From assembly GCA_004123355.1 (NCBI GenBank), contig SCHM01000004.1:6041017-6105016 (forward strand): 64,000 nucleotides of DNA, written 5' to 3'. This stretch comes from Amphirosellinia nigrospora (taxonomy: Eukaryota; Ascomycota; Sordariomycetes; Xylariales; Xylariaceae). Positions 28,711 to 56,030 of the stretch are shown piece by piece. The position numbers and the translations under genes were made by a program. The notes beneath the pieces were generated by a model. The model was not told the DNA's origin, did not search any database, and saw only the letters and a list, made by a program, of their open reading frames with translations. Numbering within the stretch: the first letter of the stretch is position 1; every line of letters begins with the position of its first letter.

Positions 28711-30989
28711 ATATATTAAAACTAAAAGTTTAACGTTTAAATAATATATTTATTTATAAGTTAAATTAATTTAACTTTTTAATTAAAATAGCTATAAAAA
28801 CTATTTATAAATATTATATAATTTATTATTAAATATTATATTATAAAACTAAAATAATTATATAAAACTATAACAAATTTTAAATAAATATTAAAACTAA
28901 ATTTAAATATTAAAATATTTAGTTTTTAATTATAAAAGTTTTTATTTAAGTTTATAAAACTATAAAAAAAAAATATAATAAAGTTTTATATTTAAAAATA
29001 GTTCGATAAAAAGTAAAATATAATTAAAGCTTATATTTAAATATTTAAAATTTAAAATTTAATTTAGCTAATAATTTTTTAAAGTTTTTAAAAGCTTTAG
29101 TTTTTTATTTTAATTTTAATATAATTTTTTTATATTTTTAATTTATAGTTAAATTTTAAAACTTTTTTTTATAAACTTTTTAAAATATTATTTTTTAAAA
29201 AAGTTTAAAGCTATTTTAAATAATATTATAATAATAATATAATATATTTAATTTATAAAAATAATCGGAATAATATTAATTTTTAAGTTTTTATAAAAGT
29301 TTTTAAAAGTTATATAGCTTTTATAGCTAAATTTTATAGTTAATCTATATAATAATAATAATAAAAAAAGTTTTAAATATTAAAAATATAAAATTTTATT
29401 TTTAAAAAATAAAAAATTAAATTTTTATAATATTTTTAATATTATTATTATTTATTAGTTAATTTAAACTTATTTTAAGCTTTTTGTTTAAATTTTTATT
29501 ATAATAAATATAAATATAACTAATAATATAAAAATAAAAAAAATTATTTATTATTAAGTAATAATTAATTAAATAATAAATTAAATAGTTAATTTATTAA
29601 ACGTATTAAATAATATAAATAAGTTATAAATAATTTTATAAAAATATATTAACTAATTAATTATTTAATTTATTAAGCTATTTTTTAGCTATTATAATCG
29701 ATTTAAAAATTTTAACGGTTTATTATATTAAATATAAATAAAATATAAATAAAACATAAATAAAATAAAAAAAAAAACATATTTATTATAATTATTAATA
29801 AGTTATATTATATATAATAATAAATATATATTTTTTAAGCAGTAATAATAATAATAAAAAACTAAGCTATATAGTTTTTTAGTATTTATTTAATAATACG
29901 TTTTATATAAACGTTTTTTATTTTTGCGCTATTTCGAATATATTAAAACTAGTAGTTAATATATATTATTTTAAACTTAAACGTAGTTTTATTTAATAAA
30001 TAAAATTATAATATATATTTTATATTTTAAGTTTTTAATTTTAATAAATTATAAAAAGTTTTTATAATTAAATTATTAGTTAATTATATATTAATAAATA
30101 AATATTAAAGTTATATTATTAAATAGTTTAAAAACTAAACTTTTTTATTTATTATTATAAATTTTATTTTTTTTTAAATAAAAAAGTTATTAAAATTATT
30201 ATTATAAACTATAAATATTTTATATTAATATTTAGTTTAAATAAATAATAAAATAATATATTTATAAATAATTTTAATTTTTTAATAAAATAAATCGCTC
30301 CGAAAGCTTTAAAAAAAATAGCTATAAAGATTATTTAAAAAAATTCTAATTAGTTTTATAAACTAGTTTAATATAAAATTAAAACAATAAAGCTAATAAG
30401 TTCTATAATAATAAATAATATAAAAAAAAAAAAGTTTTAAAACTAAGCTAAAAAAAGCGTTTTTTTAAAACTAAATTTTAAACAAAAAAAAAAAAATAAT
30501 AAATATTTTAGTTTTATTTTTTTAATTTTTTATAATCCGGGCAATAATATATAATAATATACGCTAACGTTATTTAATTATTTTTTTATTAATTATTATT
30601 TATATAATTTGCTAAAAAAATTATATAATAATATATTTTAGTTTATATATATATATTTAAATATTTTATATTTAGTTATTTTATATAAAAATTATAATAT
30701 TTTTATAAAAAAAAACTATAAAAGTAGCAATAAATAAGCTAGCGCTTTTTTACGCCCGCTATTATTATTATTAGCGCTAAAAACTTAATAACTTTTAAAT
30801 ATTATATTATATTAGTTATTTTAAAAACATATTAAACGGCGTTTTTTAAATATATAAAAATATTAATATAGCTTTTTAGTTATTATTTATAAAGTAATTA
30901 AAAAAGCAAAAAAATAATAAGTTTTTTTTTTATATAGTTTAGTTTTATTAGCAATTTTTAGTTTACGTTATTTTAAAAAAACTTATTTA

Positions 30990-36066: not shown

Positions 36067-36341
36067 ATAATTGCTACGCGTAGGTAAGGGACCCAGTGCC
36101 CCTAGGGCACTGGGGTCACCCTGTGGCTATACGTGGCTGTGACCAGTGGCTGTGGCACACCCCACCCAGGGGTGGGTCACGTGGCCACCCCACCTACGTG
36201 GGGTAGGTCACCTAACCACTAGTTGCAGTGACCTATATAAGGTGGGTAGTGGACGCGGGCTACCACCACTACCTTTATAAACCACTAGACTTACAAATAC
36301 CATAATATACACTTTTACCCAAGGCTTCTTGTGTTAATAAT
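36067..36341 (+). mobile_element. Candidate solo LTR escaping RIP, with 5-bp target duplication
   Basis: A 265-bp island (36,072-36,336) is about half G+C in DNA that is otherwise about 90% A+T. It begins TGCTACGCG and ends CTTGTGTTA, and is flanked by ATAAT on both sides (36,067-36,071 and 36,337-36,341), as a 5-bp integrase target duplication would be. It holds a perfect hairpin (CCCAGTGCCC 36,092-36,101, loop CTA, GGGCACTGGG to 36,114). It also has several further GTGGGG/CCCCAC inverted words, a TATATAA at 36,234-36,240 followed by a second TTTATAA, and a transcript-like 3' part. TG...TA would be TG...CA with one C-to-T change. Length, TATA box and ends fit a retrotransposon LTR too short to trigger RIP, or one inserted afterwards. 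No internal region is attached. A short 5-bp match is weak evidence in AT-rich DNA. Confidence 0.55.
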
Positions 36342-55814: not shown

Positions 55815-56030
55815 TAGTCACGGGTGGCTAACCAGATATAAATATAGTGGATATAGTGGGTTTTTATAAAACTTACTTAGAGTTATATAATTAGCCTTAT
55901 TATGTACACATATAAAATTTTATATATAAAATTAGCCGCTAGATCTTAAATCTAGCTTAATATCTCTCGATTAATATATAAATAAAACTTTAACTAGGAG
56001 CTTTGCTTTTATAAAAACACTAATTGTAAT
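55815..56030 (+). mobile_element. Partly RIP-sparing island, possible LTR remnant
   Basis: The sequence from TAGTCACGGGTGGCTAACCAG through TTACTTAGAG, TAGCCGCTAGATCTTAAATC, ATCTCTCGATTAAT and TAACTAGGAGCTTTGC to CACTAATTGTAAT keeps more C and G, including CpA, than its surroundings. Starts like GTCACGGGTGG and ends like TTGTAACA are common in fungal Gypsy LTRs (from memory), and one or two C-to-T changes would give the ends seen. ATTAA occurs at both edges but is uninformative here. Length is about 216 bp. Weaker case than 36,072. Confidence 0.4.

Follow-up and report, generated by a model that had tools for sequence, protein, structure and literature searches.

Among the elements that resemble the one described here, crapaud is of coding size, and the others are non-coding. 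TRIMs of the TRIMp2 type have short LTRs, a short non-coding internal region, and a primer site adjoining the 5' LTR, and they depend on a helper (Kojima 2024, PMC10886601). In the same account, the length of TRIMs is given as below 1 kb, and the longest Helenus measures 1263 bp. Helenus elements of fungi and plants produce a 5-bp target duplication; the fungal members are non-coding, are accompanied by numerous solo LTRs, carry a tRNA-like sequence in the LTR, and for the most part are said to pair with the anticodon loop (PMC10886601). TRIMs have been annotated in Venturia, a RIP fungus (PMC4646964), and in other fungi (PMC5689174, PMC10886601). Arrays of the form LTR-internal-LTR-internal-LTR are described for the non-coding plant element Cassandra, which carries a 5S sequence (PMC7215508). 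The crapaud element of Podospora anserina has LTR subfamilies that differ chiefly in U3, and its solo LTRs are largely spared by RIP (PMC10787394). RIP itself is described as being set by repeat length and similarity, with AT content also acting (PMC4522978, PMC10787394).

The window, i.e. the whole 64-kb stretch of DNA that was analysed, contains a GC-rich island of 265 bp at 36072-36336. With little doubt, this island is a solo LTR that derives from a non-autonomous LTR retrotransposon of TRIM-like type in a RIP fungus. The identification rests on further copies in the genome, in which LTRs in direct repeat flank internal regions with a tRNA-complementary site and no recognisable gene. A TRIM-like family is a known kind of element, and its RIP damage is uneven.

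The unit lies on the plus strand, starts with TGCT, ends with GTTA, and is enclosed by a perfect 5-bp target-site duplication, ATAAT, at 36067-36071 and 36337-36341. Thus, the 265-bp TG...TA unit between two ATAAT copies, as given in the preliminary description, is confirmed at 36067-36341. For random pairs of isochore 5-mers the chance of identity is 0.019, so that the single ATAAT duplication is moderate evidence by itself. The GC content is 54% inside the unit and 9.7% and 8.0% in the flanking kilobases, in agreement with the AT-rich surroundings noted before. The isochore is poor in CpA and TpG, with observed-to-expected ratios of 0.19 and 0.22; over the initial 24 kb of the window these ratios are 1.05 and 1.01. 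Such a depletion fits RIP. Within the 64-kb window no second LTR copy was found, and neither Rfam nor tRNA scanning of it gave a match.

The 5' part of the unit (36072-36233) is GC-rich and palindromic, lies 5' of a TATA box, and is presumed to be U3; its rate of RIP-type changes is lower than that of R-U5. It includes a hairpin at 36092-36114, the perfect 10-bp arms of which, CCCAGTGCCC and GGGCACTGGG, are located at 36092-36101 and 36105-36114, exactly as first reported. The stretch 36088-36118 folds with -21.9 kcal/mol (z -3.0). The GTGG/CCAC words and the TATA box listed at the outset are present as well, the latter as TATATAA at 36234-36240 (LTR position 163), presumably a Pol II TATA box. 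At this place, TATATAAGG is found in 15 of the 16 near-complete LTRs of the focal family (family 1). In 13 LTRs of a second family (family 2), the corresponding word is GTATATAGAT in five and GTAGATAGAT in eight copies, and TATATA itself is present in 5/13. The word CACGTG at 36178-36183, which we take to be a putative E-box-like site, occurs once in 12 of the 16 family 1 LTRs, is absent from four, and is found one to four times in each of the 13 family 2 LTRs. The palindromes, including CACGTG, are putative promoter sites. Directly 3' of the TATA box, a stem-loop is predicted at 36244-36274, in the presumed R region. The stretch 36243-36280 folds with -15.0 kcal/mol (z -3.2), and its counterparts in L011, L009, and the family 2 copy L053 give z values of -2.4, -3.8, and -3.7, respectively; badly placed stretches of L053 and L009 gave only -0.7 and -0.35. 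This stem is nearly invariant among copies and may form an RNA leader. The unit together with both duplications has a predicted fold of -115.5 kcal/mol versus -95.1 ± 5.0 kcal/mol for 200 shuffles (z -4.0), and the fold is more stable than that of every single shuffle. A tRNA- or 5S-like promoter was found neither in the window nor in the LTRs of L010, L011, and L081, for which the sole Rfam match at E values up to 5 was HgcG, with 14.5 bits against a cut-off of 77.

The host genome (48.1 Mb, 11 contigs) contains at least 19 matches to the focal LTR including the focal copy itself, 16 of them near full length and three fragments. These counts are lower bounds; a second query returned the identical 19 places. 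Among the 15 other near-complete copies, two align only from base 3 or 4, and the copy at L015 is cut at base 249 by another insertion. Eleven of the 16 near-complete LTRs are distributed over five loci that hold two or three each (L009, L010, L012, L013, and L016), the LTR at L017 is preceded by a partial internal region, and the focal copy, L011, and L014 are solo LTRs. The search for further copies and the alignment of their ends, both proposed earlier, thus yielded at least 18 other matches, and the paired copies fix the same boundaries, so that neither of the refuting conditions named at the outset applies. At six of the eight loci with both outer ends readable the duplication is a perfect 5 bp, namely ATAAT at the focal locus, TTTAT at L009, AAATT at L011, ATTAA at L012, CTTTA at L013, and AATAT at L016. 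The duplication at L010 agrees in four of five positions (AAGTT/AAATT), and the outer ends of L014 have none in register. At all eight loci the outer flanks are AT-rich on both sides. Together with the paired copies elsewhere, these duplications uphold the original reading as a solo LTR. The nearest relative of the focal LTR is L011, from which it differs by 17 substitutions; no age can be derived from this number, because 12 of them are RIP-type. The focal copy is outside the near-identical copies of its family.

At the five loci, paired direct LTRs enclose six internal regions of 770-966 bp, and the total element length is about 1.3-1.5 kb. The internals open with AA, followed by the 12-nt tRNA-complementary word TGGTGCGGTGAG. 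This word is exact in two of the six (the first internal of L009 and that of L012) and is changed in the other four solely by G>A or C>T. All 12 of its positions are complementary to the 3' terminus, CCA included, of three tRNA genes of 90-92 nt, called Ile(gat) by ARAGORN, which we take to be intron-bearing tRNA-Phe(GAA) genes. None of the 38 distinct tRNAs predicted from 50 of the 58 genomic tRNA matches fits the primer site. With one mismatch allowed, the tRNA 3'-end pattern gave 26 and 24 hits versus 24 and 37 in the reversed control, i.e. no more than the control, and hence the count was confined to the three exact hits with a tRNA fold. Exact copies of TGGTGCGGTGAG number nine in the genome, two of them in this LTR family; none of the seven other exact words has an LTR-like end two bases upstream. 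A search of the LTR for sites at which the start of the internal could self-prime yielded no candidate. The internal consists largely of an array of tandem CAGACCTAC-like repeats. The internals share the end GTGTGTGGCATT and terminate in TGTGTGTGGCATT; no polypurine tract adjoins the 3' LTR, and a purine run, GGAGGAAAG, is present further upstream. The missing polypurine tract, the seven primer-site words outside the family, and the LTR terminus TA, instead of CA, speak against the reading as a TRIM-like LTR retrotransposon. The longest ORFs of L009 comprise 134, 100, and 94 aa, and L012 has a single ORF of more than 80 aa. In a Pfam scan of the three longest of 15 listed L009 ORFs all matches stayed below the cut-off. 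Since no gag-pol of its own was found among the ORFs of L009 and L012, the element is regarded as non-autonomous. The expected parent element was found, as an element of 1.3-1.5 kb with no recognisable genes and not as a coding one.

This architecture agrees with that of TRIMp2 TRIMs in the short LTRs, the short non-coding internal, the primer site beside the 5' LTR, and the presumed reliance on a helper, as far as these are set out in the TRIM account (PMC10886601). It deviates in the length of about 1.3-1.5 kb, the absence of a recognisable polypurine tract, the TA end, and the partly tandem internal of the CAGACCTAC type. As the length exceeds the figure of less than 1 kb given for TRIMs, the element is called TRIM-like and not a TRIM. 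With Helenus, as portrayed in the same source, it shares the fungal host, the lack of coding sequence, the 5-bp duplication, and the solo LTRs, but it has a TATA box and no tRNA-like sequence was found in its LTR, and its primer site fits the 3' end of a tRNA, in contrast to the anticodon loop given for most fungal Helenus. In the proposed life cycle, Pol II transcription would start from the TATA box, and a tRNA 3' end would prime at the 12-nt site two bases past the LTR. Reverse transcriptase and integrase would presumably be borrowed from an autonomous helper element, and integration would make the 5-bp target duplication. Recombination between the LTRs would later leave a solo LTR. The focal copy would have landed in AT-rich DNA that was already mutated, with light RIP-type damage afterwards.

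The 3' part of the family 1 internal also matches elsewhere in the genome. Of six such places that were read, four adjoin a second LTR of about 225 bp (TGACACAG...TGTGTCA), and a fifth adjoins a broken one. At the sixth, L056 (about 267-492, read on the minus strand), the shared internal 3' end is followed by a third, unrelated-looking LTR-like sequence, TGTCACAAGGC...TTATGACA. The family 2 LTR has at least 29 genomic matches, fragments included. Its plan is the same as that of family 1, with the LTR, AG, TGGTGCC..., and internals of 708-784 bp (five measured), and the U3 sequence differs between the families, a trait shared with the LTR subfamilies of crapaud. Half of the first hairpin is missing in the family 2 LTRs L080b and L080c. 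At L080, the order LTR-AGCT-LTR-internal-LTR is found between two copies of TAGTA. Because in family 2 AG follows U5 and CT precedes U3, AGCT looks like two unprocessed cDNA ends joined together. Such joined ends are a feature of two-LTR circles. L081, another family 2 locus, is a three-LTR array between two copies of ATATA, in which AT-rich DNA enlarges the first internal.

L009 is the three-LTR array of family 1. Its outer LTRs have no substitution in 256 columns and 5 gap columns, with 7 differences in an earlier multiple alignment that placed the gaps otherwise, while 23 of 259 positions distinguish the middle LTR from the first. This pattern fits a dimer that was retrotransposed as one unit, or a circle that recombined with a resident copy. 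The same order of LTRs and internals is described in the account of the plant Cassandra arrays (PMC7215508), where the element carries a 5S sequence. As judged from the outer LTRs of L009, the activity of family 1 is recent, as had been predicted for the parent element. The first LTR also has, at its outer end (L009:3486-3530), a perfect 23-bp duplication, in which 21 nt of the LTR start are followed by TT, the two bases before U3, and by the LTR again. It looks like a cDNA-end or strand-transfer accident.

RIP-type changes are unevenly distributed over these elements. Relative to L011, the focal LTR shows 12 C>T/G>A changes, seven of them at CpA, one reverse change, and 4 transversions. The preliminary description had offered two explanations for the readable island, arrival after RIP or a length too short for recognition. 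An insertion later than the surrounding mutation is retained, whereas an LTR left untouched is not, given the ratio of 12 to 1. The focal LTR was probably inserted after its surroundings had been mutated and then underwent light RIP-type damage. Readable solo LTRs in the isochore would also serve as markers of insertions later than isochore mutation. Differences between paired LTRs are almost all transitions (13 of 13 at L010, 12 of 13 at L012, 14 of 14 at L013, and 29 of 32 at L016), and dating by LTR divergence was dropped on this ground. At L013, RIP-type changes affect 90 of 449 sites of the internal versus 20 of 317 of the LTRs (p = 3e-8), and at L016 205 of 442 versus 33 of 294 (p = 3e-25). 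In L010 and L012 the difference points the same way but is not significant (p = 0.11 and 0.22). Internals were compared with the L009 internal and LTRs with the L011 LTR, and the internals carry more transversions (14-49, the partial L017 left out) than the compared LTRs, so that the contrast may in part reflect older divergence. Overall, RIP-type hits within elements tend to decrease from the internal to R-U5 and further to U3.

Between sister LTRs of family 1, 29 of 511 sites in U3 and 36 of 245 in R-U5 carry RIP-type differences (p = 8e-5), and over seven comparisons in family 2, three of which pair LTRs of unlike type, the counts are 19/576 and 31/353 (p = 5e-4). When only true pairs are taken and the following base is used for stratification, the contrast persists with p = 2e-5 in family 1 (five pairs) and 0.014 in family 2 (four pairs). 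At CpA, RIP-type changes amount to 20/154 in U3 versus 26/70 in R-U5 in family 1, and to 2/86 versus 7/82 in family 2, i.e. a rate about threefold lower in U3 than in R-U5 of the same LTRs in both families. In the nine true pairs, the 5' LTRs have 14/844 changes in U3 versus 23/443 in R-U5 (p = 6e-4), and the 3' LTRs 20/844 versus 25/443 (p = 0.004). As the contrast appears in 5' and 3' LTRs alike, distance from the element ends is no explanation. RIP hits cluster in tracts, which makes all these p values optimistic. With the two LTRs of a pair summed, two of the nine pairs have no RIP-type difference and the other seven are all lower in U3, albeit barely in L012 and L078/L051. Single LTRs that run the other way are the 3' LTR of L012 (5/108 in U3 versus 1/49 in R-U5) and L078a (3/89 versus 0/50).

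Why the LTR has stayed readable may have a simple reason, namely that 265 bp lie below the length limit of RIP, irrespective of sequence. This is a plausible account, although we would not put it at even chances. RIP is said to act on repeats longer than about 400 bp (PMC4522978), and in Podospora most solo LTRs of crapaud escape RIP while the LTRs of full copies do not (PMC10787394). In line with this, C>T/G>A changes per GC site amount to 0.077 in the focal LTR, as opposed to 0.20 for the L013 internal and 0.46 for that of L016. However, in these two strongly hit copies the LTRs are likewise less damaged than the internal although they belong to full elements (the difference is not significant in L010 and L012), and U3 is less affected than R-U5 in both 5' and 3' LTRs, neither of which is predicted by length alone. 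The focal copy is itself RIP-biased, though this damage may predate its solo state. A more specific and rather unlikely proposal is that the GC-rich, palindromic U3 is shielded from RIP in cis by its own sequence. Bound factors, an unusual DNA structure, or failed homology pairing could each provide such shielding. The two families that show the contrast have U3 regions that largely differ in sequence and are GC-rich and palindromic in both. The passages of the crapaud report that treat RIP (PMC10787394) contain no description of a contrast between U3 and R-U5 within an LTR, and no U3-specific RIP gap within LTRs of full elements was found in the accessible portions of the open-licence RIP literature. 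If shielding were true, the promoter would stay intact while the rest of the copy is mutated, and a short element could outlive RIP in cis. Should the U3 contrast persist when a larger sample is examined, RIP would be seen to be shaped by bound proteins or by the local sequence.

The identity of the island could also be questioned. The genome has 32 RVT_1 and 16 RVT_2 matches, i.e. reverse transcriptase genes exist, and the LTR might belong to a coding gypsy or copia element, the coding copies of which were destroyed or are absent from the assembly. This is improbable, as neighbouring LTRs at the five paired loci lie 770-966 bp apart, no pair several kb apart that would frame a coding element is present among the genome matches, and the element interrupting the L015 LTR has a different end. 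Two queries revealed no autonomous or coding copy with this LTR among the genome matches. A stand-alone palindromic element of the MITE or foldback kind, not retroviral in origin, would account for the stable fold, the dense inverted words, and the family 2 LTR ends TGACACAG and CTGTGTCA, which are inverted repeats. Direct-repeat copies around common internals, the primer site, the 5-bp duplications, and the AGCT junction of family 2 make this origin exceedingly improbable.

Other mobile elements in the genome may include a helper. Among the 32 RVT_1 matches, five without stops have one identical score, and one of these five lies about 3 kb past the insertion at L015. There, a GC-rich LTR-like sequence starting at about TGTGGCTCCAGGG interrupts the LTR (L015:1286-2301). 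A coding element may therefore be active and unmutated. At L092 (C9:206950-207360), the word TGGTGCGGTGAGTGCGGATT at C9:207296, one of the seven primer-site words outside the family, is complementary along 20 nt to the 3' end of a tRNA including its CCA. A dispersed repeat with at least 42 matches, many of them on contig C9, ends 72 nt before it. A chance hit was considered and dropped in view of the 20-nt match. The word may serve a different LTR element as primer site, and that element would be a candidate helper.

Repeat arrays of the CAGACCTACG type are arranged in inverted halves at L093:230-1260 (C4:808700-810100) and appear foldback-like. Clusters of such matches, the inverted halves of which are deduced from match strands, occur at C1:13562366-13563488, C4:1943061-1943620, C1:4692935-4693498, and C6:6725199-6725879. 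The word repeated in these arrays also recurs in the mini-element internals. In the window between 24500 and 64000, residual C is mostly found in ACT, GCT, and ACG, and TCA and CCA are almost absent. TpC is depleted alongside CpA in the isochore, a loss wider than that of plain CpA RIP. Further small GC bumps (33%) are located at 30721-30780 and 55821-55880. The sequence of the latter resembles the GTGG-rich words of the LTRs, and it may represent an LTR in decay.
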